Positions 29,680 through 64,000 of a stretch of DNA of 64,000 nucleotides are shown here, piece by piece. Below the pieces are notes generated by a model, which made no database searches, was not told where the DNA came from, and saw only the letters and a program-made list of their open reading frames with translations. Position numbers and translations under genes: made by a program. The first letter of the stretch is position 1. Each line of letters begins with the position of its first letter. Origin of the DNA: Gimesia aquarii (GTDB taxonomy: Bacteria > Planctomycetota > Planctomycetia > Planctomycetales > Planctomycetaceae); NCBI RefSeq assembly GCF_007748195.1, contig NZ_CP037920.1, positions 4,353,800 through 4,417,799 of the forward strand, given 5' to 3'.

Positions 29680-29687
29680 GACTCAGC

Positions 29688-30071: not shown

Positions 30072-30190
30072 CGCAAAACAGGAATCGCGATTGAGGAAGA
30101 CTACCGGTTTGTATAGAATGGTAGCAGATGATTTGAGATTTTCTTCATAAAACTTCATCGATTCAACTGATTCTCCATAAAGTTCACACC

Positions 30191-30715
30191 ATGAAAAAAT
30201 GTAAAGTCTGTAATAAACCAGCCGTGTATCACCTGACCGAAATCCAAAACGGAGAGGCACAGGCGCTGCACTTTTGTGAAGACCATTTTCAGGAATACAT
30301 CAGTGGTCAGGCTCCCCAGGATGAGTGGGAGCCTCAAGACGAAGCCACACTCATCGAACTGAATTCACAAGATTTGGAACTGGATGAAGAACTCGAATGC
30401 CCCAATTGTGGAATTACATTTCAAGAATTCCGCAGTGAAGGGCGGTTAGGCTGTCCACACGATTATATCGCCTTTAGAGAACCACTGATTCAACTCCTCG
30501 AAAACATTCACGGCGAACGTGAACATATCGGCAAATTCCCCAAGCGGGCGCCGACTTCGAGTCAGCAGCAATACGACCTGATTAAATTACGCCGCGAATT
30601 GACAGCGGCGATTGTGGAAGAAAATTACGAAAAAGCGGCTGCACTAAGAGATCAGATCTCCAAACTCGAAGAAGAAGAGCAAAACGAACTCGAATCTGAT
30701 AGTTCGGCAGAATAA
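30191..30715 (+). CDS. UVR-motif zinc-ribbon protein (McsA-like)
   Basis: A 174-residue protein with an N-terminal CxxC pair (CKVCNKPAVYHLTE), then CEDHF, a second zinc pair CPNCGITFQEFRSEGRLGC, and a C-terminal UVR motif (LRRELTAAIVEENYEKAAAL). The layout matches McsA, the activator of the McsB arginine kinase, and related stress proteins, including partners of Clp. No mcsB is seen here. It is the last chromosomal protein gene before the tRNA and the island. Confidence 0.85.
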   Translation: MKKCKVCNKPAVYHLTEIQNGEAQALHFCEDHFQEYISGQAPQDEWEPQDEATLIELNSQDLELDEELECPNCGITFQEFRSEGRLGCPHDYIAFREPLIQLLENIHGEREHIGKFPKRAPTSSQQQYDLIKLRRELTAAIVEENYEKAAALRDQISKLEEEEQNELESDSSAE

Positions 30716-30855
30716 TCACGGTGCGCTTGCAGCAAATCTAAGTCGAAAAACCAAAAACATTTCAGAAACAATCTGAAAATCAGACATTTTTCTCGCGATC
30801 GATTTGTATCAGCTCAGAAAAATCGTTAGTATTCCAGCAGAAGCGAAAACCATCC

Positions 30856-30937
30856 GGGGATGTGGTGGAATTGGCAGACACGCTAGATTTAGGATCTAGT
30901 GCCGCGAGGCGTGCAGGTTCAAGTCCTGTCATCCCCA
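30856..30937 (+). tRNA. tRNA-Leu (anticodon UAG)
   Basis: Acceptor GGGGATG pairs with CATCCCC plus discriminator A. The anticodon stem CTAGA/TCTAG encloses TTTAGGA, so the anticodon is UAG (Leu, CUA codons). A long variable arm (TGCCGCGAGGCG) is right for a class II tRNA, and the T-arm reads CAGGTTCAAGTCCTG. CCA is not encoded. Its 3' end is the likely attachment site for the island: the integrase follows 885 bp downstream. Confidence 0.96.
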
Positions 30938-31196
30938 ATCACTTTACTGGATTGATTTTACAACGTGGGTCAAAAACTCATGGTATAGAATTAATCTAGT
31001 AACACGAAATCTAATCAGTTCTACTCATATTCTGCATGGTTATTGGTATGTATCACGCTCCTTCCAATAGCTCGGCCGTCTTTTAAATCAGTAAAAAACA
31101 GTCTTTAATTATGCTGGTTGTTGGGTGTCCGTAAGGCCCCAGATTTTTTGGTGATTCTTGCTAAACAATAGGCCAAGCAGCATAATTGACCTGGCG

Positions 31197-31821: not shown

Positions 31822-32844
31822 ATGCAGCTTGAGAAAGACCAGATTTTTTGGTCTGTCTACAAGGATATGTATCTGCAACGTCTGCAGATCCGCGATAATA
31901 ATCAGGTTTATATTGATAACGTTCGCCGTGTTCTAGAACGGTTTACAAGATACTGTAATCTGGTCACGCGTTTTTTGAGCGAAATCACGGTACAGGACCT
32001 GGAACATTATCTCAAAATACGCAAAGGCGAGAAATGCCGTGGAAAATTACTAAGTAATGTCACGTTAAACAACGACCTCCAAGCGCTCAATAGTTGTTTG
32101 GGCGCTGCAGGTCCCATCGAACCGCGTGGGCCCGGACGCGGTAATTACGGATTTCTTGATTTTCCGCCTTATATCGAAATGCTGTCGGTCGATGAAACGG
32201 AACCGAAAGTCGTCACAGAGCAGCAGATCCAAAAATTCAGCGAGGCAGCCAGCTTTGCACGATCTCCCCAAATCGAGGGATGTACGCCAGCGGAGTTTTG
32301 GCGGGCCGCACTTCTGCTGGGAATGATCACAGGGTTGCGTCGACGTGGATTACTGCTGATTGAGCGTCCTTCTGATGAAATGCTGATCGAAAAACGTGAG
32401 TTGTTTCTGTCCGCGAAACATCACAAGACGCGGAACTCGCTTCGGATACCGCTAGGATCGGCAGAAGTCGTGAACATGCTGGCAAAACTGCCCTCACAGA
32501 AAGGGGAACCGCTTTTGCCCTGGAGGCGTTCGACCGGAGAACCGCTTTCCGCGCAACACTTCAGTAATACGATGGCGAAGATTCAGCGAGAGGCCGGAAT
32601 TGCAGAAGGGGATCGCGTGAAAACAAAAAACCTGCGTTCCACTACGGCCACGATTATTGCAGAAGAATTCAACGATGACCTCGCACGGAAACGGCTGGGT
32701 CATTCCCCCAATTCCAAATCAACGCTCCTGGTCAACTACAAGGCGAAACGAGTTTCCGATTTGGATCGGGTGGCAAGCGAAAAGCTGGGGGAATTGGTCC
32801 TCCCTCATGTCACTTCTCCCATTTTAAAAGTATTTGGAACATGA
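31822..32844 (+). CDS. tyrosine-type site-specific integrase
   Basis: A 340-residue phage-integrase-family recombinase. Residues about 1-110 form the SAM-like core-binding domain; the catalytic domain follows. Visible: the first Arg in TGLRRRG near 171, the beta-hairpin Lys in HHKTRNSLRIPL near 200, the second Arg in KNLRSTTAT near 270, GHSPNSKST near 293 and the nucleophile Tyr in LLVNYKA near 305. The usual HxxR box reads KNLR, so Lys replaces His. A good ribosome site (GAGGAG) precedes the ATG. It lies just inside a tRNA gene, so it most likely drives integration of the island. It is also one candidate enzyme for the repeated dif-like sites. Confidence 0.88.
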   Translation: MQLEKDQIFWSVYKDMYLQRLQIRDNNQVYIDNVRRVLERFTRYCNLVTRFLSEITVQDLEHYLKIRKGEKCRGKLLSNVTLNNDLQALNSCLGAAGPIEPRGPGRGNYGFLDFPPYIEMLSVDETEPKVVTEQQIQKFSEAASFARSPQIEGCTPAEFWRAALLLGMITGLRRRGLLLIERPSDEMLIEKRELFLSAKHHKTRNSLRIPLGSAEVVNMLAKLPSQKGEPLLPWRRSTGEPLSAQHFSNTMAKIQREAGIAEGDRVKTKNLRSTTATIIAEEFNDDLARKRLGHSPNSKSTLLVNYKAKRVSDLDRVASEKLGELVLPHVTSPILKVFGT

Positions 32845-33559: not shown

Positions 33560-33745
33560 ATGTTAGTTTTAAGTCGCAAACTGCAAGAAAAAATCAAAAT
33601 TGGTGACGACATTTACATCCAAATATTAAAAACCGGACCGGGGGCCGTGCGGGTGGGAATCGAAGCGCCGGTAGATGTTCCCATCGTACGCGATGAACTG
33701 AATCATGAATCGACGGAAGAGGAACCGAAACCACAAGTCGCGTAA
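33560..33745 (+). CDS. csrA: CsrA-family translational regulator
   Basis: A 61-residue CsrA/RsmA homologue beginning MLVLSRKLQEKIKIGDDI, then VRVGIEAPVDVPIVRDEL with the family's conserved RVGIEAP and the RNA-contact Arg in IVRDEL. CsrA dimers bind GGA motifs, often over ribosome sites, and change translation or mRNA stability. GAAAGGAG precedes the ATG. It sits inside the island between small genes and the initiator-like gene, so it probably regulates element genes or resets host regulation. CsrA homologues carried by phages and plasmids are known. Confidence 0.95.
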   Translation: MLVLSRKLQEKIKIGDDIYIQILKTGPGAVRVGIEAPVDVPIVRDELNHESTEEEPKPQVA

Positions 33746-33765: not shown

Positions 33766-34923
33766 ATGACGGATCAAAAAGAACAAGGTTGCCTCAATTT
33801 TACACGAGGTAACAAGATTCATATTTTGAGAGAGATCGCGCCCTTGTTGCCCCATTATCGCATGACGCGCGTTCTCCGAGCCGTTGATGCATGGCAATGG
33901 AAAAACGCTCGCAACGAAAATTACTTCACATTCTCGTATCGCCAGATCGCCGAGTTTGAAGGAATGAGTGTCCCGACGGTCCGACGCGGTATTGCCGATC
34001 TGATCAAATACGATCTCTTAATCAAACACGAAGCTGTCACCAGTTATGGCCAGCAGCCCAATGCGTATAAGATCGCCTGGTCAATCCTTGATGCCGTTGT
34101 GAACGATGGTGAGCCGTTATTGCTCGATCTGGACGAAATCACTGGCGACGAAACTGAAACTCCAGCTCCTGATCTGGATCAAAAATCGTCGCAAGTCCTT
34201 AAAGTAGGGGGTGATCAATTTGATCACCCCCCTGATCACGACGCCCCCCCAGAATCGGCGCAAGTCGTTAATGTAGGGGGTGATCATTCTGATCACCCCC
34301 CTGATCAATTTGATCAGGCCTCCTTATACCCATTAATTAATATTAATCCACCACCCTCCCATAAAGCGCTCGTAACAATTACGCCGGAGCGGGTGGTGGT
34401 GGAAAAAGAATTGCGTTTGATGGGTGTGGGACTCGCGTCCAAAGCCATTGAAACGGCCCTGGGCCGTGGCTGTTCACTCGATGATGTGCTGCAGCTGATT
34501 GAATACGCGCGATCGAAGCCAGACGCGTATGGGCCCGGCGCGCTCAAAAACCGGGTTTGTGAGGCCTTGCCCGGTGAAGATCCCTCACAAGGCTGGCCTC
34601 GGGAATCTGATGAATTTCTCAAGCAGCAACGGCAGGCCGTAGCACAGAAGGAAGGCAGCCAGGCTTCGCGGAAAACGGCAGAACGCGAAGCAAAACGAAA
34701 AGCGAATCAACGCGCCCAGCAAGAGCTGGAGCGTGAATACGGCCCCCAGCTGGACCGATTGAAACGAGACGAGCTCCTCGACTTCGTGAAAGCTCATTGT
34801 GAACCGGTCATTGTCCGGGCTCTGGCCCAAAATCCGGATGTTCATCGTTCACCCGGTTTCTATCGCGTCACATTGCTGGAGGCACTTCGAGACCAGGCAA
34901 CCGGAATGCCTGGTGAAGTTTAA
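33766..34923 (+). CDS. winged-helix replication initiator-like protein (lambda O-like)
   Basis: A 385-residue protein. Residues about 25-110 form a winged helix domain (YRQIAEFEGMSVPTVRRGI, then DLLIKHEAVTSYGQQPNAYK), like phage O-type initiators and plasmid Rep proteins. Residues about 130-190 are a repetitive linker (VGGDQFDHPPD twice) coded by DNA with strong palindromes. A middle domain (about 205-270) reads VEKELRLMGVGLASKAIETAL and is followed by a Lys/Arg/Gln coiled-coil (about 285-330) and a C-terminal helical part. I infer a replication initiator whose origin lies in its own gene. A transcription factor is the alternative. It follows csrA by 20 bp. Confidence 0.6.
   Translation: MTDQKEQGCLNFTRGNKIHILREIAPLLPHYRMTRVLRAVDAWQWKNARNENYFTFSYRQIAEFEGMSVPTVRRGIADLIKYDLLIKHEAVTSYGQQPNAYKIAWSILDAVVNDGEPLLLDLDEITGDETETPAPDLDQKSSQVLKVGGDQFDHPPDHDAPPESAQVVNVGGDHSDHPPDQFDQASLYPLININPPPSHKALVTITPERVVVEKELRLMGVGLASKAIETALGRGCSLDDVLQLIEYARSKPDAYGPGALKNRVCEALPGEDPSQGWPRESDEFLKQQRQAVAQKEGSQASRKTAEREAKRKANQRAQQELEREYGPQLDRLKRDELLDFVKAHCEPVIVRALAQNPDVHRSPGFYRVTLLEALRDQATGMPGEV
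34191..34347 (+). other. origin-like cluster: direct repeats, GATC palindromes, AT-rich tract
   Basis: Two direct repeats about 69 bp apart, each with a long inverted repeat: GGGGGTGATCAA/T/TTGATCACCCCC (34207-34231) and GGGGGTGATCA/TTC/TGATCACCCCC (34276-34300). A third palindrome, CTGATCAA/T/TTGATCAG, is at 34301-34317. TGATCA occurs seven times in about 105 bp. A/T-rich ATTAATTAATATTAAT follows directly (34332-34347). The layout is like lambda ori inside gene O: initiator sites in the linker-coding region, then an unwinding tract. Confidence 0.55.
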
Positions 34924-35411: not shown

Positions 35412-36086
35412 ATGTCACAAGTTCAACTCGACTTTTTTAATACCCCCGACGAGCCTGCTTTGAATTCTGTTTATGTGGATCCGATGTTAGGCTGTGCCAG
35501 AAATCCTAACTGGCGATACGACGAAGCGTGCCACATGTTTGTGGATCCGGAAACGTCTCTCGATGTACTACATGATTTCGCAACTCGCATCGGATTAATG
35601 AGAGACTGGTTTCAAAATCAATCTACAATTCCTCACTACGATTTGACAAATTCAAAACGTCGCCTGGCTATCAAAAAAGGCGCAGTTAGTGTCGATCATC
35701 GATTTACGAATGCGAAGCTCAAAGCCTGGCGTTTACCTGGGATTTCGTTTTCGATCACAACCGATCAGACCCGGATGAAACGCAAAGACGTAACCCGTCG
35801 CCTCGGTTGGCACGATTTACAGCCAGACACGTTGCTGAAGGCCTGCGTGAAATGCATGGGACTGAAACGTGGGGAAAAACGGGAAGTCATTTGTGTGATC
35901 CGTGTCGTTTCCGTCTGCAAGGAACCGTTGAGCAAACTAATTTTTGATCGTGATTATGGAAATCAGGAAGCGACGCGTGAAGGCTTTCCGGAAATGACAG
36001 GTGAAGAGTTTGTCGCCATGTTTTGTAAAAAGATGCGTGTCGTTCCATCAACCAAAGTCACACGCATTGAGTTTTCTTACGTTTGA
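35412..36086 (+). CDS. DUF4031-like plus ASCH-like fusion protein
   Basis: A 224-residue protein. Residues about 15-100 resemble DUF4031 (VYVDPML, LHDFATRIGLMRDWFQ, PHYDLTNSKRRLAIKKGA). Residues about 110-224 resemble an ASCH domain: RMKRKDVTRRLGW, then REVICVIRVVSV, FDRDYGNQEATREGFPEM and FVAMFCKKM, ending VTRIEFSYV. ASCH domains bind RNA or modified nucleotides, so the fusion may sense or act on RNA. The DUF4031 part has no known activity. It starts 12 bp after the previous gene with AGGA upstream. Confidence 0.65.
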   Translation: MSQVQLDFFNTPDEPALNSVYVDPMLGCARNPNWRYDEACHMFVDPETSLDVLHDFATRIGLMRDWFQNQSTIPHYDLTNSKRRLAIKKGAVSVDHRFTNAKLKAWRLPGISFSITTDQTRMKRKDVTRRLGWHDLQPDTLLKACVKCMGLKRGEKREVICVIRVVSVCKEPLSKLIFDRDYGNQEATREGFPEMTGEEFVAMFCKKMRVVPSTKVTRIEFSYV

Positions 36087-38736: not shown

Positions 38737-38764
38737 TGACCGGGTAACGCTAATTACCCGGTCA
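38737..38764. repeat. dif-like palindromic site 5
   Basis: TGACCGGGTAA / CGCTAA / TTACCCGGTCA. Both 11-bp arms are perfect. Confidence 0.88.
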
Positions 38765-42435: not shown

Positions 42436-42502
42436 ATTTATTTTCCTTGTAAGAATTTTTCGTATTATTTATATAAACGTACTCATCAAAATAATATTCA
42501 AA

Positions 42503-42530
42503 TGACCGGGTAATAGCCATTACCCGGTAA
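42503..42530. repeat. dif-like palindromic site 11
   Basis: TGACCGGGTAA / TAGCCA / TTACCCGGTAA. Only the outermost bases differ between arms. Confidence 0.85.
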
Positions 42531-42604
42531 ATATTTTAGAGGGTGTCTTTTAAAGGTCGCTCAAAAACGCATTTGAGAAAATGTTTGAGTTTATCGGATG
42601 AGTG

Positions 42605-42705
42605 CAAGAGTAACACCCAAAATCACCGGGTTGCCGCCAGCGATTCTCAGTTGACAATTCGGCCCGGACTGCAACTCCGGTGCATGGTGTTGTTATACTG
42701 CCCCG
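42605..42705 (-). repeat. attC-like imperfect hairpin downstream of the Mrr-like gene
   Basis: On the gene strand the region after the stop reads GTATAACAACACC ... GTGTTAC. Outer arms AACACC/GGTGTT (42612-42617 with 42686-42691) flank inner arms CACCGGGTTGC (42624-42634) and GCAACTCCGGTG (42671-42682), which pair except for one extra base at 42676. A bipartite imperfect stem with an extrahelical base and AAC/GTT-type ends, placed right after a stop codon, is the layout of integron attC sites. The end motifs do not fully match RYYYAAC/GTTRRRY. Confidence 0.4.
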
Positions 42706-43872
42706 TTAGTCCATTGAGTTGAAGTATACCGGATTTCCGTCCCACCGTTCGAATAACTTGTGGTCCGCATGGAAGTAGACCGTGTCATTGTATTCCGATT
42801 TTGAACGCGTGGCGCGCATTACATTGTCGGCATTGAGATTTTCTATTGACGTCGCAGTAGTGTCCGGAACAACGGTACCGACTTGTCCGTCGCCATCGAT
42901 GTGTTTGGATGGAAGATACATCAGTAGGGCTGCGTTCTTTGTTTCCTTGAGAATAATCGCAAAGCTGATGAGTGTGCAGTTATAGCCCCAACTGGCATAG
43001 ACGATTTGCTCGTTATCGTGATCCGTGAGTAGCGATGATACGTGGGATTGCGTGACAAGTTGTGATTTGTCACGAAGGATTCGAGTAGATGCTGTATTGC
43101 ACCATCTCTGAACATCACCCGAAGTCGCAAGCGTGATTCGCTGTTGCTGGCGATCCGCGAACTTCTTCGCGCTTGGCAGAAACCGTGACGTCGTAACGAA
43201 CAGGCCGCGATTCGCCCTCTCGTCCTCAACGACAGCACTAAGGGCGGCGACGGCCTCTAGATTGATTGCGCGACTCTCTGCATACCGCTTCGCTTGAACC
43301 AACGTTGTCACATCTCCGATTGCGTCTTTGTGATAGAGACGCAAGTCGACGCCACCATCTCCAGATCCCGGTCCGAGTGTGGAGAGGTAGCCGTTATTTC
43401 GAAATACAGAATCCAGCAGTCTTTCAAAATCGCGATGGTGTAAATCACGAAGACGTTCAGGCTTGGCTTGAAAGTACTCAAACAGTTCTTCGTAGAGGTC
43501 TCCATAGTCTTCCGCGACAAGTTTGCAAATCCATTGCCACTCGAAGAATTGCTGGTAGTGGGGAATGAGTTCATCGTTCGATGGGTAGAAGCACGCGGTA
43601 ACGTGGTCGTGTAGCTCGAAGTAGAATCCGGTATCATCGAAGAGTTCCGTGAACTCGTCTTCGAGTGCTGAGTCCGCATAGCCATTGATGATTTCAAAAA
43701 GAGGCCCTTCATATGTCATCACCAAGACGCACGGAATCTGGGTAGGTTCCATGTCAAAATGGGTCACCCAGTCGGTGAACGACGAGTCGTACCACAGGTC
43801 GCGTTCAGTCGCCCAATCAACAATGAGCTTTCGCAGATCTTCGAGTTTCTGTGTGAGTTCTGCGTCTGTCAT
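42706..43872 (-). CDS. Mrr-like restriction endonuclease-fold protein
   Basis: I start at ATG 43872 (388 aa, MTDAELTQKLEDL), since longer in-frame starts lie in a duplicated leader that also precedes an unrelated gene at 61340. The nuclease domain at about residues 165-255 shows HHRDFERLLDSVF, GSGDGGVDLRLY and TTLVQAKRYAESRAINLEAV: the E..GGxD..QxK pattern of Mrr-type PD-(D/E)xK nucleases. Flanking parts are unknown. It may cut modified DNA as an anti-phage enzyme. Base composition is richer in G/C than neighbouring genes, a sign of separate origin. Confidence 0.75.
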   Translation of the reverse strand: MTDAELTQKLEDLRKLIVDWATERDLWYDSSFTDWVTHFDMEPTQIPCVLVMTYEGPLFEIINGYADSALEDEFTELFDDTGFYFELHDHVTACFYPSNDELIPHYQQFFEWQWICKLVAEDYGDLYEELFEYFQAKPERLRDLHHRDFERLLDSVFRNNGYLSTLGPGSGDGGVDLRLYHKDAIGDVTTLVQAKRYAESRAINLEAVAALSAVVEDERANRGLFVTTSRFLPSAKKFADRQQQRITLATSGDVQRWCNTASTRILRDKSQLVTQSHVSSLLTDHDNEQIVYASWGYNCTLISFAIILKETKNAALLMYLPSKHIDGDGQVGTVVPDTTATSIENLNADNVMRATRSKSEYNDTVYFHADHKLFERWDGNPVYFNSMD

Positions 43873-43877
43873 TACAG

Positions 43878-44089
43878 CATAACTTGAATTAGACTGAATT
43901 ATTTCGGTATAAACCATTAAGGGTAGAATTAGTGAAATTCTGTTTAAACAGAGATGAATTGTCAAGATAAAATTGAGGAAGTTGCTATGATCAAAGGAAT
44001 TAGGTTGAATGACTTGAATTGGGAAAAGCGGAATTCTGAACGGCGATCTAAACTCATTCTCACGCCCTTCTCAATATGATTTAAATTAG
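43878..44089 (-). repeat. duplicated leader segment, copy 1
   Basis: About 210 bp nearly identical to 61947-62158. Both copies run from a dif-like site (12 or 27) to the motif GTTATG just before the start codon of a leftward gene, and the two sequences diverge exactly there. Contains a promoter and a short leader reading frame that includes TEIIQSNSSY. Confidence 0.85.
43937..43965 (-). promoter_or_regulatory. promoter in leader copy 1
   Basis: Leftward -35 TTGACA (43960-43965), 17-bp spacer, -10 CAGAAT (43937-43942). It lies about 65 bp upstream of the Mrr-like start codon. Confidence 0.6.
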
Positions 44090-44117
44090 TGTCTGGGTAA
44101 TAAGAGTTACCCAGACA
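44090..44117. repeat. dif-like palindromic site 12
   Basis: TGTCTGGGTAA / TAAGAG / TTACCCAGACA. Perfect arms. Doublet with site 13, 55 bp apart. Confidence 0.88.
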
Positions 44118-48254: not shown

Positions 48255-48893
48255 ATGTGTTCAAATGAATTTGGTTACATCTTTGATTTTCCCATCTTAA
48301 GAAGGCAGCACAAATTGACTGCACAAAGTTCGTTCCAGGACCTTCTAAACCAACTTCAGAGAGGCGATCAAGATGCAGCAACAAAGATATACGAACGCTA
48401 TGCACAGCAATTGATTGCAAAAGCTCGCATCCATCTCGGTACACGTTTACAAAACAAAGTGGATGCTGAAGATTTAGTGCAATCGGTATACCGCAGCTTT
48501 TTTCACCGCTTTGCCCAAGGACAATATGAGTTGGAGAACTGGGAGAGTTTGTGGGGGTTGCTGATATTAATCACACTCCGAAAGTGTGGTAGAAAAATCA
48601 ATCATTTTTATGCAAACAAACGTGATATCAATCGGGAAATAGAACCAAATATTGGAACAGAGGAATCAGCAAGACACTGGGAAGCGATCGCACGAGAGCC
48701 CACACCAGAAGAAGCAGCAGTGTTAACTGAAACTATGGAGCAATTTTTGGAAACATTTAATCCCAGACAGAGAAATATGATTACTCTTTTCCTCCAAGGA
48801 TATACGCAACAAGAAATTAGCAGTCAAGTGGGTTGCAGCGAAAGAACTGTGCGCCGTGTTCTCGACCTAGCACGAATAGAACTGAATACTTGA
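48255..48893 (+). CDS. ECF-type RNA polymerase sigma factor
   Basis: A sigma-70 family protein of up to 212 residues. Region 2: GDQDAATKIYERYAQQLIAKA then VDAEDLVQSVYRSFFHRF (the DAEDLVQ motif). Region 4: FNPRQRNMITLFLQGYTQQEI then SSQVGCSERTVRRVLDLAR, a clear HTH. The start is uncertain: ATG 48255 lacks a ribosome site, and a TTG at 48315 would trim 20 residues. No anti-sigma gene is adjacent, but a Ser/Thr kinase-WD40 gene follows 75 bp downstream, a common planctomycete pairing in which kinase signals are thought to control the sigma factor. Confidence 0.9.
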   Translation: MCSNEFGYIFDFPILRRQHKLTAQSSFQDLLNQLQRGDQDAATKIYERYAQQLIAKARIHLGTRLQNKVDAEDLVQSVYRSFFHRFAQGQYELENWESLWGLLILITLRKCGRKINHFYANKRDINREIEPNIGTEESARHWEAIAREPTPEEAAVLTETMEQFLETFNPRQRNMITLFLQGYTQQEISSQVGCSERTVRRVLDLARIELNT

Positions 48894-48968
48894 GGAGGAT
48901 TGAATCTCGTTCCATCTAGGATTACTTGGCTTTGGATGAAGATGTCTTATGTTAAAGGTTGATCTCCT

Positions 48969-51900
48969 ATGAATTCGCAATTACGACAGGGACATATTTC
49001 TGTGGTAGACCAGAAAACGGTGGAGAAAATTGTTGAACGATTCGAAGTTGCCTGGCAAACGGCTACTCCTCCTGCTATAGAAGATTTTGTTCCTGAAACC
49101 GGACATTTACGAACTGTAGTGATCATTGAACTAGTCCATTCTGATCTTGATTTTCGCATTAAAGCGGGTGAACGAGTTCGTATTGAAGAATACTTCAATC
49201 GATTTCCCGAACTTCACAAAGACAAAGAAACGTTCTGTGAGTTGGTTGAAGCAGAATATCACATTAGACAACGACAGGAGCCATTGCTGAACCCCTCAGA
49301 ATACTGGGCACGATTTTCTGAACAGCATCAACTCCTTCGACAGATCTTTCCAGATCAAGTGATAGTTGCAGCAACAGGTCACTCTTTTAATTCTTCACCG
49401 TCTCTTAAAGAAGAGACGACGAATCCACCTAAAACAAGGAGAGATCCAGCAGACATTCAAGGCAAACAGTTCGGGGATTATGTCCTGATTGATGAAATTG
49501 CACGGGGTGGAATGGGGGTCGTTTTCAAAGCCGAGCAAAAAAGGCTTAATCGTGTTGTAGCCTTGAAGATGATTCTGGCTGGACAATTAGCAACAGAACA
49601 TGACATCAACCGTTTTCAACAGGAAGCGGAAGCGGCAGCCAAGTTGGAACACCCCAATATTGTACCAATCTATGAAGTGGGTGAACATCATCAACGACAT
49701 TACTTCTCGATGGGGTTGATTGAAGGGAATAGCCTGGCAGATCAACTCAAAGAAAGCCCATTGCCATCGGAAGAAGCAACTCGTATTTTGATCGCTGTTA
49801 CTGAAGCGGTTGCGTATGGTCATGATCAAGGGATCGTTCATCGTGATTTGAAGCCTGATAATATTTTAATGGACAAAAACGGGCAACCTCGTGTGACAGA
49901 TTTTGGGTTAGCTAAATCACTTGGCGAATCTAGTGGGATGTCAGTCACGGGACAAATCATGGGAACTCCTAGCTATATGCCTCCCGAACAGGCGAGAGGA
50001 GATCATAGTGCCATTAATCAACTTTCAGATGTTTATTCACTCGGTGCAGTTCTCTATGCTACATTAACAGGTCGGCCTCCCTTCCAGGCTGCGAATGCCA
50101 TGGACACCCTCAAGCAAGTTCTTGAACAAGAACCAGTTTCACCTCGTCAACTGAACCCGGCAGTCGATGCGGATCTTGAAACCGTTTGTTTGAAATGTCT
50201 GTCGAAAGAAAAGGCAGGACGGTATCAGTCAGCAAATGCCTTAGTAAAGGAACTAGGGAGATATCAAAATGGAAGACCCATTAAGGCTAGACCTATTGGA
50301 ATAGGCACACGTTTCGGGCGGTGGTGTAAACGTAACCCGATAGTGGCTGGATTGAGTACAGCTCTGGCTGTTTCTCTGGTGATTGGTACTATAACATCAG
50401 CCCTTTTCGCCGTAAAAATGAACAGAAGCGCGATTGAAGCAAGAAAAGCAAGTCAAGAAGCAGCTGAAATGTCTGAACAGCGACGTATTGCACTTGTTAA
50501 TGCAGAAGAGGCAATAAAGAAAGAGCGACGAACAGCTGAAACTGAACGTAAAGCACGACAAAAAGCGGACCAGTTATTGTATGCTAGTCAGGTTAGAACG
50601 TCCCAACGCCTTTTGAAAGAAACACATATTTCAGCAGCCAGAAACATACTGATGGCAACGAGCCCGACCTTACGGAGCTGGGAGTACTCTTATCTCTACA
50701 GTATGTTAGATGTGAGCAAGCAGACACTCCAGGGACATCTCTCTAAAGTCATCAGTGTCGCCTTCAGTCCGGATGGAACGCGCATCGTCAGTGGTAGTTG
50801 GGACAACACAGTGAAGATTTGGGATGCCACGCAGGGTCAGGAAATACGCACACTCAAGGGACATAAAGGCAGAGTCAACAGTGCCACATTCAGTCCGGAT
50901 GGAACACGCATTGTTAGTGGCAGTAATGACAACACGGTGAAAATCTGGGATGCCGCGCAGGGCCAGGAAATACGCACACTCAAGGGGCATACCTCTGGGG
51001 TCACCAGAGTCGCCTTCAGCCCGGATGGAGCACGCATCGTCAGTAGCAGTTTTGACCACACTGTCAAAATCTGGGATGCCACGCAGGGCCAGGAATTGAT
51101 CACAATTCGAGGACATTCTAAATATGTCACCAGTGTTGCTTTCAATCCGGATGGAACACGCATTGTTAGTGGCAGTAATGACAACACGGTGAAAATCTGG
51201 GATGCCGCGCAGGGCCAGGAAATACGCACACTCAAGGGGCATACCTCTACGGTCAGCAGTGTCGCCTTCAGCCCGGACGGAACGCGCATCGTCAGTGGTA
51301 GTCACGACAACACGGGCATAATTTGGGATACCAAACAAGGTCGGGAGTTGATCACACTCAAGGGACATACAGATAGTGTGACCAGTATCGCCTTCAGCCC
51401 AGATGGAACGCGAATAGTCAGTGGCAGCTGGGATTTCACCATGAAAATCTGGAATGCCGCGCAGGGCCAGGAAATACGCACACTCAAGGGGCATACCTCT
51501 TCGGTCAGTAGTGTCGCCTTCAGTCCGGATGGAACGCGCATCGTCAGTGGCAGCCGGGACAACACGGTGAAGATTTGGGATGCCACGCAGGGTCAGGAAA
51601 TACGCACACTCAAGGGACACACAGACAGAGTCACCAGTGTCGCCTTCAGTCCGGATGGAACACGTATTGTCAGTGGTAGTGGAGACAAAACGGTGAAAAT
51701 CTGGGATGCCGCGCAGGGCCAGGAAATACACACACTCAAGGGGCATACCTCTTCGGTCAGTAGTGTCGCCTTCAGTCCGGATGGAACGCGCATCGTCAGT
51801 GGTAGCTGGGACAACACGGTGAAGATTTGGGATGCCATGCAGGACCAGGAGTTGATTACACTCAAGGGACACACAGACAGAGTCACCAGTGTCGCCTTCA

Positions 51901-53024
51901 GTTCGGATGGAACGCGCATCGTCAGTGGCAGTAATGACAACACGGTGAAAATCTGGGATGCCGCGCAGGGCCAGGAAATACGCACACTCAAGGGGCATAC
52001 CTCTGGGGTTCGCAGCGTCGCCTTCAGCCCGGACGGAGCACGCATCGTCAGTGGCAGTGGAGACAAAACGGTGAGAATCTGGGATGCCACGCAGGGCCAG
52101 GAATTGGTCACACTTCGAGGGCATTCTAAATATGTCACCAGTGTTGCTTTCAATCCGGATGGAACACGCATCATTGTTGGCAGTTACGACAGCACAATGA
52201 AAATCTGGGATGCCAGGCATGGTCGGGAGTTACTCACACTCCGGGGGCATTCCTCTGGGGTCAGCAGTGTCGCCTTCAGTTCGGATGGCGCGCGCATCGT
52301 CAGTGGCAGTTTAGACAAAACGGTGAAAATCTGGGATGCCACGCAGGGCCAGGAGTTGCTTACATTCCAGTGGTATAGCTCTGGGGTCAGCAGTGTCGCC
52401 TTCAGCCCGGATGAAGTACGCATTGTCAGTGGTGGTGGAGACAACACGGTGAAAATCTGGGATGCCGCGCAGGGCCAGGAAATACGCACACTCAAGGGGC
52501 ATACTTCTGGTTTCAGCAGTGTCAGATTCAATTCGGATAGAGCACGCATCGTCAGTGATAGTAATGACAAAACGTTGAAGGATACACCGTCAGTCGTTCT
52601 CGCCCGTGAAAGAGGATTAAATCTCAAGATACCTAGCTACAATGGAATACGAATGGGTATCTCACTGGATAAGATGAAGAATGAATTAACGAAGCAAGGC
52701 ATCAAATATGGAAACTTTTTCACGTATAAAGATGGCAAAGGTTTTGTTGTATCTAATACTAGTTTTCGGTTCACATCTAGCAACAAACTCTTTCAGATAT
52801 ATGTGTTCGGCCCAAGCATGAAAATCCAAGGTGGACTTAAATTGCAATCTTCGACAATTAAAGAGTTTGAAACATTTCTAGGAGTTCGCAGTACAAAAAC
52901 AAAAGCACCAAATGGACACGAGTTCCATCACACAATAATTGGTGATACAGCAGAGCTTATTCTGATCTCTCGAAATGATACTCCAGAGATAGTTTCTTAT
53001 ATTATGTTGACGATTCGAAACTGA
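48969..53024 (+). CDS. Ser/Thr protein kinase with WD40 repeats
   Basis: A 1351-residue membrane kinase. Order: N-terminal acidic domain (1-150); kinase domain about 170-435 with GGMGVVFKAE (P-loop), VALKM (Lys), HRDLKPDNILM near 290, DFGLAK and YMPPEQARG; a TM helix near 460-480 (IVAGLSTALAVSLVIGTITS); a coiled coil (about 485-540); then about 15 WD40 units of 42 residues to about 1200; and an unrecognised C-terminal domain. With the sigma factor upstream it forms a likely signal unit: an outside propeller and an inside kinase. The repeats are very similar in DNA. Ligand and targets are unknown. Confidence 0.93.
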   Translation: MNSQLRQGHISVVDQKTVEKIVERFEVAWQTATPPAIEDFVPETGHLRTVVIIELVHSDLDFRIKAGERVRIEEYFNRFPELHKDKETFCELVEAEYHIRQRQEPLLNPSEYWARFSEQHQLLRQIFPDQVIVAATGHSFNSSPSLKEETTNPPKTRRDPADIQGKQFGDYVLIDEIARGGMGVVFKAEQKRLNRVVALKMILAGQLATEHDINRFQQEAEAAAKLEHPNIVPIYEVGEHHQRHYFSMGLIEGNSLADQLKESPLPSEEATRILIAVTEAVAYGHDQGIVHRDLKPDNILMDKNGQPRVTDFGLAKSLGESSGMSVTGQIMGTPSYMPPEQARGDHSAINQLSDVYSLGAVLYATLTGRPPFQAANAMDTLKQVLEQEPVSPRQLNPAVDADLETVCLKCLSKEKAGRYQSANALVKELGRYQNGRPIKARPIGIGTRFGRWCKRNPIVAGLSTALAVSLVIGTITSALFAVKMNRSAIEARKASQEAAEMSEQRRIALVNAEEAIKKERRTAETERKARQKADQLLYASQVRTSQRLLKETHISAARNILMATSPTLRSWEYSYLYSMLDVSKQTLQGHLSKVISVAFSPDGTRIVSGSWDNTVKIWDATQGQEIRTLKGHKGRVNSATFSPDGTRIVSGSNDNTVKIWDAAQGQEIRTLKGHTSGVTRVAFSPDGARIVSSSFDHTVKIWDATQGQELITIRGHSKYVTSVAFNPDGTRIVSGSNDNTVKIWDAAQGQEIRTLKGHTSTVSSVAFSPDGTRIVSGSHDNTGIIWDTKQGRELITLKGHTDSVTSIAFSPDGTRIVSGSWDFTMKIWNAAQGQEIRTLKGHTSSVSSVAFSPDGTRIVSGSRDNTVKIWDATQGQEIRTLKGHTDRVTSVAFSPDGTRIVSGSGDKTVKIWDAAQGQEIHTLKGHTSSVSSVAFSPDGTRIVSGSWDNTVKIWDAMQDQELITLKGHTDRVTSVAFSSDGTRIVSGSNDNTVKIWDAAQGQEIRTLKGHTSGVRSVAFSPDGARIVSGSGDKTVRIWDATQGQELVTLRGHSKYVTSVAFNPDGTRIIVGSYDSTMKIWDARHGRELLTLRGHSSGVSSVAFSSDGARIVSGSLDKTVKIWDATQGQELLTFQWYSSGVSSVAFSPDEVRIVSGGGDNTVKIWDAAQGQEIRTLKGHTSGFSSVRFNSDRARIVSDSNDKTLKDTPSVVLARERGLNLKIPSYNGIRMGISLDKMKNELTKQGIKYGNFFTYKDGKGFVVSNTSFRFTSSNKLFQIYVFGPSMKIQGGLKLQSSTIKEFETFLGVRSTKTKAPNGHEFHHTIIGDTAELILISRNDTPEIVSYIMLTIRN
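50722..52560 (+). repeat. 126-bp tandem repeats coding for about 15 WD40 units
   Basis: Each unit codes about 42 residues: LKGHTxxVxSVAFSPDGTR, IVSGSxDNTVKIWD, AxQGQEI. Many units are near-identical at DNA level, some separated by others, so gene conversion or unequal exchange is recent. Minus-strand frames over this stretch are shadows. Confidence 0.92.
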
Positions 53025-53150
53025 AAGTCTGATTAATCATTTGAACTGGTGCCATAGCTTTGACGTTACTCTTACCTTTGTTCGATATACACAAACGTTT
53101 TGTTTAATGCGTTTTTAAACGACTCTTTTAAAAGAAACTCTATAAAATAT

Positions 53151-53179
53151 TGACCGGGGTAACTGATGTTACCCGGTCA
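53151..53179. repeat. dif-like palindromic site 16 (29 bp)
   Basis: TGACCGGGGTAA / CTGATG / TTACCCGGTCA. One extra G in the left arm. Right boundary of the first module array. Confidence 0.82.
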
Positions 53180-53285
53180 CTTTATCATTAATAGGTGGCG
53201 CCATTCACGCGATACGATTTCATTTAAACCCTAATTGACGTCTCTCAGGGCAGATTGCGATCGTATTGGCAAAATCAATGTACAA

Positions 53286-53480
53286 TTAATGAACATCCTT
53301 GATCGACGGGGATTCATTGACTGGTTGCCGTGGATACCGTCTCTTCAAATCGTCGATCAATGGCATCAACGTTTTTCTTGCGAGCCCTCGAATTGAGATA
53401 TTCTCTTTTGCCGCGTAACGACATAGCGGCCACCAGTCATCCCGATCAAGCTCAATCGTAATTGTTTTTTTTCTTCTCAT
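53286..53480 (-). CDS. small DNA-binding-like protein
   Basis: ATG 53480 gives 64 aa beginning MRRKKTITIELDRDDWWPL; the longer frame to 53600 has no support. The start RKKTITIELD followed by AAKENISIRGLARKTL resembles a ribbon-helix-helix regulator, although longer than a typical Arc/MetJ unit. It is leftward, unlike the other backbone genes, and could repress the rightward genes beyond 53906. The identity is a guess from pattern. Confidence 0.45.
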   Translation of the reverse strand: MRRKKTITIELDRDDWWPLCRYAAKENISIRGLARKTLMPLIDDLKRRYPRQPVNESPSIKDVH

Positions 53481-53905
53481 AATCCAACTGCCCTTGACTT
53501 TTTTAAACGAGTTAATGCGAAATTGTAACTGCGAAAAGAAACTGGTGTAGAATGATGGATCGCATGAAACGCCAGTCATTTTCAGAGAGCGGTAGGGCAT
53601 GGATGAATTACCGCTCTTTATATCATTTCTTAATCAGGCAAGGAAGCCGAATCAATACTCGAATAAACTCCCTCTCAAGCCACTTGATGGTAAGACAACC
53701 TATCCCACTGCATTTCTGACAATTGTATTTTCCCTACGTGGGTTCCGGACATGATCGATGAAGGTGCGCCAGCTCCTGATGACGGATCGCTCTTTTCTTT
53801 AATGAGTACGCTCCACATTGGCAAGAGGGGCCTCAACGGAAACAGGTTTCGTCGTCTTATTTGCTCTGATCTATCCCGGATTGAAATTGTTGAAAGGAAT
53901 CAAAT
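53481..53905. other. regulatory-type intergenic region
   Basis: About 425 bp between a leftward small gene and a rightward small gene. It holds a hairpin at 53586-53617 with arms AGAGCGGTA and TACCGCTCT followed by TT. Otherwise nothing is recognised. The ribosome site GAAAGGAA of the next gene is at the right end. Confidence 0.45.
53586..53620. terminator. terminator-like hairpin
   Basis: AGAGCGGTA (53586-53594) pairs with TACCGCTCT (53609-53617) around a 14-nt loop, followed by TTA. The short T-run makes it weak as a terminator. Confidence 0.45.
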
Positions 53906-54109
53906 ATGAAAAGCCACAGCTCAAATGATCGTCCAGCAGATAAATTACCGGGAGCTGATCCCGTCGTTCAGTCTAATGAAGATCTCGACAAGGCTTTGAA
54001 TGAGCTGTCATACCTGGACGAGTTTGATCAGTCGACCAATGAAACTTGCACCAGGTACATCGAGCAACTCGAGCAGGAATCTGAGCAACAAAATAATGGT
54101 TTTGATTGA
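53906..54109 (+). CDS. hypothetical 67-aa acidic protein
   Basis: GAAAGGAA at good spacing before ATG 53906. The product is acidic and helical (ALNELSYLDEFDQSTNETC, YIEQLEQESEQQ). Not recognised. It precedes the cos-like patch and the TerS-like gene in the second backbone block. Confidence 0.55.
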   Translation: MKSHSSNDRPADKLPGADPVVQSNEDLDKALNELSYLDEFDQSTNETCTRYIEQLEQESEQQNNGFD

Positions 54110-54193
54110 GGGAGAGAAGAAAAGCAATTCGTTTCCACTCAGCTCGGTAAGCGTTTAAGATCAGCCAGCCAAGTACAAGCCCGGCTAAAAAAT

Positions 54194-54233
54194 TCGCGGG
54201 TCCTCCTGCGGGGGCCCCGGGGTCGCGCGCGGT
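54194..54233. promoter_or_regulatory. GC-rich cos-like patch
   Basis: A run of about 40 bp almost all G/C (pieces CGCGGGTCCTCCTGCGGGG, GCCCCGGGGTCGCGCGCGG) in an otherwise A/T-rich stretch, 170 bp before a Nu1-like gene. Phage cos sites often look like this and sit before the terminase small subunit. Inference only; no ends are visible. Confidence 0.45.
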
Positions 54234-54387
54234 TCCCTAATCGCAATTTTTTGGTCTCAAAACGCAATTTTAAGTCACTTCTTCTTCTTCCTATTAAATT
54301 GATAGGCAAAAAATCAGAAAAGCGATCGTCCAAAAAAGTCGCATCAAAACGCACCACCTCAAAAACGAAATAAACACCTAAAAAACA

Positions 54388-54410
54388 GGCTCCAGTGAAA
54401 AAATGGAGCC
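54388..54410 (+). promoter_or_regulatory. hairpin covering the start codon of the Nu1-like gene
   Basis: GGCTCCA (54388-54394) pairs with TGGAGCC (54404-54410), which includes the last two bases of the ATG at 54403. No ribosome site is seen. The stretch ATGGA fits the ANGGA pattern bound by CsrA, and the element carries csrA; that link is speculative. Confidence 0.4.
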
Positions 54411-54774
54411 GGTCAAATGTATCATTGGATTTACTGTCGCTGCCGAACGGTGGGACGTGAGCGACAAGGCGATTCGGAACTGGATCAAAAAAGGACTTCC
54501 GGTTAGCGGATCTCAACGAAGGAGAGTTTTCGATGTTTCTGAGTGTGATGCGTGGGTGGCATCTTATCGCGATGAGATGCTGATCAGTCGGGAAGAATAC
54601 GAGTTGTTTGCCGCAGAATGTGTGATCGAGGCCCGCGACCAGATGTTGACACTACCAAAGGAAATGCGGCGGCATCTCTGCAAAAAGTGTCAGTCAAAAG
54701 TGAAAGAGATGCAAACAATGATTGAGCAGACATTGCAGCGGTTATCTGAAATCGAAGAGGGACCGAAAAAATGA
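54403..54774 (+). CDS. Nu1/terminase small subunit-like HTH protein
   Basis: A 123-residue protein. The N-terminal domain TVAAERWDVSDKAIRNWIKKG, then LPVSGSQRRRVFDVSECDAW, matches the Nu1 winged-helix pattern of phage terminase small subunits, which bind the packaging site; excisionase-like MerR folds are the alternative. The C-terminal half is helical with CKKCQ and a coiled coil (KEMQTMIEQTLQRLSEIEE). The GC-rich cos-like patch upstream and an overlapping downstream gene stub support a packaging role. Confidence 0.6.
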   Translation: MEPVKCIIGFTVAAERWDVSDKAIRNWIKKGLPVSGSQRRRVFDVSECDAWVASYRDEMLISREEYELFAAECVIEARDQMLTLPKEMRRHLCKKCQSKVKEMQTMIEQTLQRLSEIEEGPKK

Positions 54775-54857
54775 TCGCTCATACTTCTCATCCCATACCG
54801 AACCACGTGGATGATGACGAGACGCCGTTTCATTTTGAGGGCGTTTACCAAGATTGA
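54771..54857 (+). pseudogene. 28-codon gene stub ending in dif-like site 17
   Basis: ATG overlaps the Nu1-like stop by 4 bp (ATGA), the usual coupling of terminase genes. The frame reads MIAHTSHPIPNHVD and ends at a TGA that is the first three bases of site 17. It looks like the N-terminus of a larger gene, perhaps the terminase large subunit, cut off by the array. Identity cannot be shown from 28 residues. Confidence 0.5.
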
Positions 54858-54882
54858 CCGGGTAACCGTAATTGCTCAGTCA
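54855..54882. repeat. dif-like palindromic site 17
   Basis: TGACCGGGTAA / CCGTAA / TTGCTCAGTCA. Left arm perfect, right arm altered. Left boundary of the second array. Confidence 0.75.
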
Positions 54883-55037
54883 TTTTTCTTTGAAAAGCGA
54901 TAGTTGCAATATACTGGCCAAATATTCATAATTAATTAGTCAGAGAACTCTGGAATCGTTGTTCAAAATATACTGATTGCAATCACATGATTTAGGTGGT
55001 CTTTCAATTAGTAAATCGAAATGAGGTGTTATTTCTG

Positions 55038-55985
55038 ATGAAAGTTTTTTTCAGTCACTCAAGTCGAGACAAATCGCTAGTTCGTGAGATAAAGAATCAC
55101 TTTCCTGACCACTTTTCTGTTTGGATCGATGAAAAAGAACTCTTAATTGGAAGAGATTTATCTCAGAGTATTAAAAATGCGATCAGTTCTGATGAGGTAG
55201 ATTTTGTAGTTCTTTTTCTGAGCACCTATGCCCTTTCTTCAAATTGGGTGGAGCAAGAACTCAAATGGGCTCTTGAACGTGAAAAAGTGTTAAAACGTAC
55301 TTTTGTCATACCTGTTTTATTAGAAGACATATTATCGAGCGTTGAACCGCCTGAAATTCAAGATCACCTTTGCCTATCTTGCTTCGATCAGAGTGAAAGC
55401 TTTGTCAAGTATTTTGCTAACCATCTTTATGAAAAAATAGTACAGCTCCATTTCAGTGAAATGGCCGACCGAAAAGTTGAATTGAAATCAAAGATTGAAC
55501 TTAAATGTTTGGATGGTCTATACCATATGCGAAGCTATGATGAGATCTACAATTTAGCAATTAAATTAGTTGATGGCGCTAAAAGTCATATTTACTCTAC
55601 GGCATTTGGTGGCGGCAAGTATGAAGGCCGAGCTGAATTTATTGAGAGTCTTGCTAAAGCAGGGGCGCGTAACGTTCATCATAAAGTAGTGTATTCAAAT
55701 CGCCTATCGATAGCTCGTAATCGAAGTATGCTAGATCGTAAACAGGCATTCGAGAAAATGGGGGCAAGTGAATTTATTCAATTCGCTCTTGCAGAACCAT
55801 GGGGAGCAGATTTCTTAATAGTTGATAATTGTCATGTTCATCTATCGTACCATCAGCCAGCTGGTGATGCTTTACAAGCTGGTTTAGAGATAACCAATAC
55901 TCCCAATGGTGTCAAAGCGATAAGTGAATGGTTTGAAAAAGTTGTCTGGAATGACAATGGTGTAGATTTCGGTGCACTTCTCTAA
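55038..55985 (+). CDS. TIR domain protein with unknown C-terminal domain
   Basis: ATG 55038 has GAGG upstream and directly starts the TIR domain (MKVFFSHSSRDKSLVREIKN); the longer frame is unsupported. TIR covers about residues 1-140, with VWIDEKEL, VDFVVLFLSTYALSS and NWVEQELKWAL; the Glu in VEQE fits the catalytic Glu of NADase-type TIRs. The C-terminal part (about 165-315) has SHIYSTAFGGGKYEGRAEF and VHHKVVYSNRL and looks like a phospholipase D-like or sensing domain without a clear HKD motif. First gene of a three-gene operon. I infer an anti-phage role. Confidence 0.78.
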   Translation: MKVFFSHSSRDKSLVREIKNHFPDHFSVWIDEKELLIGRDLSQSIKNAISSDEVDFVVLFLSTYALSSNWVEQELKWALEREKVLKRTFVIPVLLEDILSSVEPPEIQDHLCLSCFDQSESFVKYFANHLYEKIVQLHFSEMADRKVELKSKIELKCLDGLYHMRSYDEIYNLAIKLVDGAKSHIYSTAFGGGKYEGRAEFIESLAKAGARNVHHKVVYSNRLSIARNRSMLDRKQAFEKMGASEFIQFALAEPWGADFLIVDNCHVHLSYHQPAGDALQAGLEITNTPNGVKAISEWFEKVVWNDNGVDFGALL

Positions 55986-61946: not shown

Positions 61947-62158
61947 CATAACTTGAATTAGACTGAATTATTTCGGTATGACCCATTAAGGGTAGAATTA
62001 ATGAAATTTTGTTTAAACAGGGATGAATTTTCAAGAGAAAATTGAGGATGATGCTATGATCGAAGGAATTAGGTTGAATGATTCGAATCGGGAAAAGCAG
62101 AATTCTGAATGGCGATCTAAACTCATTCTTACACCCTTCTCAATATGATTTAAATTAG
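61947..62158 (-). repeat. duplicated leader segment, copy 2
   Basis: About 210 bp nearly identical to 43878-44089, from site 27 down to GTTATG before the SUKH-like gene. Here the short leader frame (TEIIQSNSSY) ends at a stop before the gene start instead of running in frame into the gene as in copy 1. Confidence 0.85.
62006..62034 (-). promoter_or_regulatory. promoter in leader copy 2
   Basis: Leftward -35 TTGAAA (62029-62034), 17-bp spacer, -10 CAAAAT (62006-62011). Weaker than the TTGACA version in copy 1. Confidence 0.5.
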
Positions 62159-62186
62159 TGTCCGGGTAATACACATTACCCGGTAA
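62159..62186. repeat. dif-like palindromic site 27
   Basis: TGTCCGGGTAA / TACACA / TTACCCGGTAA. Confidence 0.85.
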
Positions 62187-63817: not shown

Positions 63818-63845
63818 TGACCGGGTAACAACTATTACCCGGTTA
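63818..63845. repeat. dif-like palindromic site 28
   Basis: TGACCGGGTAA / CAACTA / TTACCCGGTTA. Doublet with site 29, 66 bp apart. Confidence 0.86.
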
Positions 63846-63911: not shown

Positions 63912-64000
63912 TTATTTTAGAGTGTGTCAATTTCGGATTACGTCAAGATTCGCAGGGACGCTACGAATGGATATCGACAACTAATCCAAGTCGATCAGCA
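63912..64000 (+). other. possible gene fragment at the right edge
   Basis: An open frame runs out of site 29 to the window edge and includes RQDSQGRYEWISTTNPSRSA. The residue mix is protein-like, but no start codon with a ribosome site is seen, so it may be a remnant cut by the site or chance. Confidence 0.2.

Follow-up and report, generated by a model that had tools for sequence, protein, structure and literature searches.

Can a chromosomal island that carries an integrase, a replication initiator, and packaging genes, with no visible capsid or tail gene, travel in the particles of another phage? The question is raised by a 64,000-nucleotide stretch of the Gimesia aquarii chromosome (hereafter the window; C1:4,353,800-4,417,799 of a single contig of 7,397,129 bases), in which a first-pass annotation had proposed a helper-dependent phage satellite. 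We compared the island in the window (island C) with three islands elsewhere in the same genome (A, B, and E), one in the sister species G026 (island F), and three prophages, of which D lies in the G. aquarii genome and G and H lie in the genomes G030 and G032, respectively; the loci were examined together with their surroundings, ~80-120 kb in each case.

We put the probability at about 0.7 that the islands are satellites of a lambda-like phage family with a gpA-type terminase, packaged near helper size and arisen by deletion in the helper's own lineage. Judging from gene content, the four in the G. aquarii genome probably travel in particles made by a relative that looks complete and resides in their own chromosome. 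We also lean slightly towards a more specific account, in which a single deletion form has been caught soon after its origin, having reached at least five tRNA sites across two species, in which cargo fills the unmodified head of the helper, and in which four islands and their likely helper are found together in one chromosome.

Integration sites and shared modules of the five islands

Island C is 38,579 bp long and is bracketed by 57-bp perfect direct repeats of tRNA-Leu, as identified by repeat search. The integration target is the tRNA-Leu gene at 30856..30937 (+ strand; ARAGORN and Rfam tRNA), and the attL core lies at 30883..30939 (+ strand). The attR copy was found 5.5 kb past the window end, at genome position C1:4,423,261-4,423,317, on the side of position 64,000 to which the first-pass annotation had pointed. 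The other islands are likewise bounded by perfect att repeats at tRNA genes: island A (~0.27-0.31 Mb; 40,783 bp) by a 79-bp repeat at tRNA-Leu, island B (6.81-6.85 Mb; 37,533 bp) by a 61-bp repeat at tRNA-Leu, island E (2.07-2.11 Mb; 39,439 bp) by a 42-bp repeat at tRNA-Arg, and island F in G026 (42,994 bp) by a 72-bp repeat at tRNA-Phe. The five islands occupy five tRNA sites in two species with a mean length of 39.9 kb (CV 5%), although no more than 25-35% of any one of them can be aligned with one or more of the others.

When the flanks of B, C, D, and E are joined, each junction matches one uninterrupted place in G026, at 92, 95, 98, and 94%, respectively, which indicates that these elements were inserted, or were lost from G026, since the two species split. 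Over a 3.6-kb host flank, the two species are 96% identical. In G024 and G030, the same four junctions gave no more than partial matches, and no clean empty site for island A was found in G026, G024, or G030. A second tRNA fragment 2 kb past the attR of island A suggests an older adjacent insertion. An integrase fragment also lies past the attR of island B, and a second tRNA-like fragment lies 5.5 kb past that of island E; together, the fragments beyond A, B, and E point to earlier insertions in tandem at the tRNA genes concerned.

A left module consisting of integrase, small genes, CsrA, rep, and DUF4031 is common to A, B, and C. In island C, the tyrosine integrase (340 aa; 31822..32844, + strand; Pfam Phage_integrase, 2.8e-10) shares 69% identity with that of island A and 62% with that of island B (blastp). 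The module continues with a CsrA-like regulator (33560..33745, + strand; Pfam CsrA, 1e-19), a replication initiator (33766..34923, + strand), and a DUF4031 protein (35412..36086, + strand; Pfam DUF4031, 5.7e-15). The initiator has a weak lambda-O-like match (PHROG 428/678, E 1e-4 and 1.5e-3) and is 63% identical to the initiator of prophage D (tblastn), and 55-bp repeats lie within its gene at 34,184-34,307 (sequence inspection and blastn). Islands A, B, C, and F and phages D, G, and H all have the CsrA-like gene, possibly a switch of the satellite or phage programme; the DUF4031 gene is conserved in the same four islands. Island F has most of the left module, with a phage-type integrase. The integrase of island E is different and is located between the packaging module and the tRNA gene, and a tblastn search for the phage-type rep/initiator gave no match in E and found it in the other four of the five islands.

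All five islands share a ~3.2-kb module that encodes a small membrane protein, two lipoprotein-like genes, Gam, a G/C-rich patch, a 194-aa TerS, and a zinc ribbon. One of the lipoprotein-like genes has a weak Rz-like match (E 0.029); neither the 91-aa lipoprotein-like gene nor that for the small membrane protein matched a family in Pfam. With att repeats, an integrase, rep (of a type other than the phage one, if any, in E), and no matched virion genes, the islands have the general make-up of satellite genomes.

The cargo of island C includes an Mrr-type restriction endonuclease domain protein (42706..43965, - strand; Pfam Mrr_cat, 1.2e-25; PADLOC mREase_IV) and a TIR-domain protein (54996..55985, + strand; Pfam TIR_2, 4.6e-19; PADLOC TIR families). 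Window positions 48,255-53,024 hold a gene for an ECF sigma factor (Pfam, 1e-18) and, after it, one for a 1,351-aa protein in which PADLOC PD-T4-6 models match a kinase-like part and WD40-like repeats were recognized by eye. Between the cargo genes lie repeats of ~110-220 bp (43,877-44,100 and 61,947-62,170; 42,501-42,613 and 53,066-53,173), and islands A, B, E, and F have relatives of one or the other. Also between cargo genes is a perfect palindrome, ACCGGGTAA-N6/7-TTACCCGGT (38,739-38,762; 42,505-42,528; 63,820-63,843). All seven of its sites in the 7.4-Mb genome fall within islands B, C, or E or prophage D, elements that together with island A make up 2.7% of the genome, and its half-sites are denser inside the elements than in the flanks, G030 excepted. 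The palindrome may act as a terminator or provide a platform on which cargo is exchanged.

Missing late genes and a shared deletion scar

No capsid or tail gene had been visible in the window, and structural genes were to be sought beyond its right end. We searched the five whole islands by tblastn with late-region frames of D (30), G (28), and H (30), 88 in all, and found no homologue of their TerL, portal, or capsid genes, or of other late genes apart from those given below, so the earlier observation extends to the whole element by homology to D, G, and H, a measure that would miss virion genes unrelated to them. As a control, 27 of the 30 D late frames match G and 27 match H. The late frames that did match the islands were the zinc ribbon (five of five), fragments of the right-end integrase (C) and methyltransferase (C and E), and a cargo methyltransferase in F at 35%. 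The possibility that island C is a complete prophage continuing past the window was rejected on this homology; the element ends at attR with no virion match.

In the phages, the genes run in the order TerS, TerL, zinc ribbon, small gene, portal. In all five islands, TerL is missing, and a short scar, ATGAT(C/G)GC(T/G)CAAACT..., stands between TerS and the start of the zinc ribbon. The first codons of the scar, MIAQT in A, B, and C, resemble the TerL starts VIAPT (G) and MIAAAT (H); as a trace of the deletion this likeness is suggestive only. Because one scar is found at five tRNA sites, the spread came after the deletion. Of the phage right-end genes, the integrase persists as a remnant in island C (56% over 54 aa), and the methyltransferase in islands C (71% over 85 aa) and E (62% over 42 aa). 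The islands seem to have lost the virus shell genes and kept the packaging end.

Prophage D and its relatives

Prophage D (1.15-1.19 Mb in the G. aquarii genome; 43,181 bp) is integrated at tRNA-Asp with a 49-bp repeat, and both of its relatives are at tRNA-Phe, G with a 46-bp repeat (46,820 bp, in G030) and H with a 49-bp repeat (42,115 bp, in G032). The lengths of the islands are 87-100% of that of D. Prophage D has a packaging module as in the islands, followed, in open frames, by TerL, zinc ribbon, portal, further head genes, and large genes in tail position. Its TerL matches GpA_ATPase (1.1e-42) and GpA_nuclease (7.4e-35), and its head genes encode a portal (2.2e-31), an S49 head protease (1.7e-32), and a Mu gpT-type head protein (1.3e-26). 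The tail was assigned by position to large genes, where three large proteins are without a Pfam hit. On the basis of size, gene order, and conservation in G and H, prophage D is apparently complete.

The TerL of D is the only gpA-type TerL in its genome. TerL genes of this kind were found in three of 17 genus genomes (G. aquarii, G030, and G032), and TerL matches at E < 1e-20 were found in 11 of 170 genomes of the order. No gpA-type TerL of the D kind was found in G026, which leaves island F without a resident helper of this kind. Among the best 20 of 696 phage records matched, identity to the D-family TerL is at most 29.5%. Relatives of TerS and TerL were also sought in viral contigs, and none were found save one distant TerL match (19%); the patch had no hits there as an exact 21-mer or as a gapped pattern. 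No close relative was thus seen in virus-derived data.

Island F and phages G and H are all at tRNA-Phe, with flanks that are 78 and 74% alike and integrases that are 77 and 60% identical. Within the G. aquarii genome no att site is shared, D being at tRNA-Asp and the islands at tRNA-Leu (three) and tRNA-Arg. Each of the prophages D, G, and H carries two different tyrosine-integrase-like genes, one per end, the right one of D being the one compared with Pfam. The segment G000:C1 1,156,704-1,163,233 of prophage D shares cargo with the segment 2,094,125-2,100,910 of island E, namely an 831-aa protein (84% identical), a repeat protein (78%), and a third protein (44%), and cargo thus seems to move between the likely helper and a satellite.

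Two copies of the packaging module and selection on TerS

The gene that had been read as a Nu1-like small terminase (54403..54774, + strand; 123 aa in translation) is indeed a TerS relative (PHROG 57, E 6e-14), but it is a shortened duplicate whose intact copy lies past the window. It belongs to an inner packaging module (53178..54873, + strand; blastn between islands), a second, partly decayed copy of the right-end module. The 123-aa protein consists of the DNA-binding domain fused to the C-terminal region, matching residues 21-92 and 128-194 of the full 194-aa TerS; the N-terminus and the linker (residues 93-127) are gone. The Gam-like gene of the inner module is also truncated (67 aa; 53906..54109, + strand; 45% identical over 53 aa to Gam of D). 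The intact set of Gam-like gene, patch, 194-aa TerS, and zinc ribbon is at the right end of island C, where Gam has its full length of 220 aa (C1:4,421,002-4,421,664; Pfam Phage_Mu_Gam, 1.1e-11) and TerS lies ~4 kb past the window end. By blastn, an inner copy of the module with a truncated Gam is present in all five islands (A, B, C, E, and F). Island A has lost the TerS of this copy, island B has a frameshifted and shortened form of it, and a shortened open frame is retained in C, E, and F (123, 117, and 155 aa, respectively).

The 194-aa TerS matches PHROG 57 (E 4e-22) and Pfam Phage_Nu1 (E 0.0021; 18.1 bits, below the family cut-off of 30), and its best solved-structure matches are terminase small subunits (PDB 6hn7, E 0.008; 1j9i, E 0.015). 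Its predicted wHTH DNA-binding domain and its TerS family match place it with the lambda gpNu1-type proteins.

We estimated dN/dS by the Nei-Gojobori method, using our own script, over 10 island pairs or, for the left-module genes, 6 pairs. Over the 10 pairs, the ratio is 0.125 for TerS, 0.106 for Gam, 0.125 for the small membrane protein, 0.128 for the zinc ribbon, and 0.20 and 0.23 for the lipoprotein-like genes; over the 6 pairs, it is 0.10 for DUF4031, 0.23 for CsrA, 0.31 for a 131-aa gene, and 0.32 for Rep. Comparison of islands with phages gave values for two genes only (lipo91, 0.16; Rep, 0.26), and the integrases of A, B, and C yielded no ratio among themselves. TerS and Gam are under purifying selection in the islands, and these low ratios mean that the genes look to be in use in elements that have no TerL. 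Between islands and phages, TerS is 71% identical in its C-terminal part and 48% in its DNA-binding domain. The divergence among the phages' own TerS proteins is similar (69 and 57%, respectively), so the pattern is not special to the islands. In lambda, the C-terminal part of TerS is described as binding TerL (PMC6739421), and by analogy that of the island TerS may do so as well.

The G/C patch as a candidate cos site

The patch in the window (GGGTCCTCCTGCGGGGGCCCCGGGGTCGCGCGCGGTTCCCTA; 54198..54239, + strand) had been described as nearly pure G/C; it is present and is the G/C peak of the window, with six overlapping 40-mers (starts 54,193-54,198) tying for the 64-kb G+C maximum, but at 34 G/C among its first 40 bases (85%) the wording was slightly generous. 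At a tolerance of up to three mismatches, the 7.4-Mb genome has three occurrences of the patch (0, 2, and 2 mismatches), all of them in the sister islands, with the 2-mismatch copies at genome positions 299,660 and 6,835,738; the reversed patch has no match in the genome at the same threshold. This recurrence, the empty control, and the G/C maximum led us to reject a chance G/C patch. A looser gapped pattern found nine copies in the G. aquarii genome, one in G026, and one in G030, and none in the remaining 167 of the 170 genomes of the order, a count that includes G032, whose prophage carries a diverged copy missed by the pattern. By eye, no similar patch was seen upstream of TerS in one Pseudomonas phage and one Rhodobacter phage.

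In the islands and the three phages, the patch sits between Gam and TerS, and it is conserved in an alignment of the 3 phages and 10 island copies. Islands and phages have an identity of 0.80 across the patch and 0.76 across the block that follows, compared with 0.62 for gam and 0.59 for the N-terminal half of terS; within the islands, conservation of the patch (0.85) is below that of terS (0.95-0.96). Two direct repeats of CGCAATTTT (54242..54273, + strand), with starts 21 bp apart, fall in the conserved block downstream of the patch and are candidate TerS binding sites.

The inner copies of the module in islands B and E (B1 and E1, where the digit 1 denotes the inner copy and 2 the full copy) show no difference over 1,128 bp that end at the 37th base of the patch, beyond which they differ by 6%, a contrast that was reached by none of 100 shuffles. 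In a breakpoint scan of 16 copy pairs, from a set that excluded A1 and the phages, this one pair breaks at the patch and the others break at module edges or elsewhere. The identity begins at the left edge of the module (~B 29,648-30,775; E 52,908-54,035, in locus coordinates) and is a very recent exchange between the two islands. By its position, its conservation, and this one recombination edge, the patch is a candidate cos site.

The patch might instead be an intrinsic terminator between the gam and terS units, with the packaging site elsewhere, for example in the downstream block or inside terS; we regard this as possible but doubtful. The patch folds as two hairpins followed by T6, and the hairpin GCGGTT-CCCT-AATCGC (54229..54244, + strand), followed by its T run, is terminator-like and was scored as such; across 13 copies, the form GCGGTT-N4-AATCGC is paired in 97% of cells while the loop varies. 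A terminator scan, on the other hand, found 2 sites in the 2-kb region against a shuffle mean of 1.9, and no compensatory, two-sided stem change was seen in the 13 copies, though a lack of covariation in itself favours neither the cos nor the terminator reading. In hairpin 1, 8 of 13 pairs are broken in some copy while the 5' arm is invariant in 12 of 13 columns, which resembles a protein site more than a stem. The absence of the patch pattern from elsewhere in the genome and the recombination edge inside the patch also speak against a terminator. This alternative concerns the patch alone and can be combined with the satellite reading.

We had also considered that cuts from the inner to the outer patch would yield a small genome of constant size, an idea we dropped on finding that the spacing differs among islands (~9.8, 10.9, 13.7, and 20 kb in A, B, C, and F, with opposite orientation in E).

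Proposed mobilization and alternative explanations

We propose that induction of a resident phage, D or a relative, would lead the island to excise and replicate. Island TerS would then bind the repeats beside the patch and recruit the helper TerL through its conserved C-terminus, and the helper TerL would cut at or next to the patch. One island length, at nearly the size of D, would be packed into an unaltered helper capsid, with Gam predicted to protect the linear ends and the membrane genes to assist lysis. Cargo (TIR, Mrr, TPR, kinase-like, and others) would be swapped while the total length stays near helper size, and the inner patch and short TerS of the window would represent the second, partly decayed copy of the packaging module.

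The proposal of a helper-dependent satellite has held up well, given the precise ends of island C, the lack of matched virion genes, selection on TerS and Gam, the four sister islands, and a resident prophage with patch, TerS, and TerL. Among the findings that count against it are that G026, which hosts island F, lacks a TerL of the D kind, that island E has another integrase and no phage-type initiator, that the patch also reads as a terminator and is broken at in one of 16 copy pairs, and that no close relative was seen in viral contigs. The lack of such a TerL in G026 would fit domesticated defective prophages, in which int, rep, lysis, and packaging genes persist as relics or for the benefit of the host and movement is rare or of another kind, with no helper packaging. 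The right-end integrase and methyltransferase remnants in C, the methyltransferase remnant in E, the decaying inner TerS copies, and the large, partly defence-like cargo point the same way. We nevertheless judge domestication unlikely, given that the shared scar at five tRNA sites means movement after the deletion, that purifying selection on TerS, Gam, and the zinc ribbon is unexpected for unused relics, and that the empty sites in the sister species speak for recent turnover.

Less probable still is that the islands are canonical cos-type phage-inducible chromosomal islands (PICIs) that acquired phage packaging genes, rather than phage derivatives. Such an origin would account for the Int-rep-cos-TerS layout, the accessory genes, and two cos-like sites like those described for EcCICFT073 (PMC6739421). 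It sits poorly with the homology of Rep, Gam, TerS, and the membrane genes to those of the phage family, with the phage right-end gene fragments retained in C and E, with the integrase type and tRNA-Phe locus that island F shares with phage G, and with a size about twice the 7-20 kb given for satellites (PMC13376191).

If packaging is confirmed, the satellite reading makes these elements a direct test case for a reductive origin of satellites and for head-size limits on cargo, with the parent family of phages and the scar of the deletion preserved alongside several derived islands and their likely helper. A published essay asks about the origin of helper-dependent elements and the reason for their being 'systematically smaller than their helpers' (PMC11389934). 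Confirmation would also establish a satellite system in planctomycetes, in which we found no phage satellites described in the part of the literature covered, at title and abstract level.

Comparison with known systems

Cos-type PICIs, such as EcCICFT073 and SaPIs of the SaPIbov5 type, resemble the islands in having att repeats, their own int and rep, no capsid or tail genes, a cos-like site, accessory genes, and, in some PICIs, a TerS homologue (PMC6092414, PMC6739421). EcCICFT073 is described with two cos sites (PMC6739421), to which the two patches of the islands, as candidates for a cos role, are alike. The islands differ in being 37.5-43 kb long rather than about one third of helper size, in having core genes in common with the helper family, in keeping Gam and lysis-like genes, and in carrying a full-length TerS rather than an Rpp adaptor. 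The criteria given for PICIs include genes exclusive to them and absent from other mobile elements, att sites that no temperate prophage of the same species uses, and Rep followed by an iteron origin (PMC6092414); a PICI is further expected to be induced by a helper and to interfere with it. Rep, CsrA, Gam, TerS, and the membrane genes of the islands are shared with D, G, and H, so the likeness to phage-inducible islands that the first-pass annotation drew from the int-rep-cos-terS set is sound in function, but the sharing of core genes with phages places the islands outside the PICI definition. Capsid-forming PICIs are described as having their own capsid, portal, and both terminase subunits (PMC10690885), and the islands have no homologue of the capsid, portal, or TerL genes of the related phages. 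P4-like satellites are characterized by psu and sid genes, with very little similarity to phages and an origin called unknown (PMC8628076).

The lambda gene order is lysis, cos, TerS, TerL, and that of the related phages here is alike, with the patch as candidate cos site. The elements described here resemble lambda-like gpNu1/gpA phages in the weak match of TerS to gpNu1 (PDB 1j9i) and in the gpA-type TerL and lambda-family portal of D. Unlike such phages, the islands have no matched TerL or virion genes, and D has a Mu-type Gam and a Mu gpT-type head protein.

The size range given for phage satellites is 6 to 18 kb (PMC11389934) or 7 to 20 kb (PMC13376191), or about one third of helper size (PMC10803314). 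The PICMI and AH14b satellites use unaltered helper capsids, reported or proposed to be filled by concatemers of 6.1- and 16.8-kb genomes (PMC10803314, PMC4936722). As in those systems, we propose a particle filled to helper size with no remodelling of the capsid; unlike in them, a single island genome is itself near helper size. The reductive evolution model predicts 'proto-hitchers', phages that through gene loss become dependent on a helper from their own lineage (PMC11389934); where that model predicts such elements, we find one deletion form at five sites in two species, with its packaging genes under selection.
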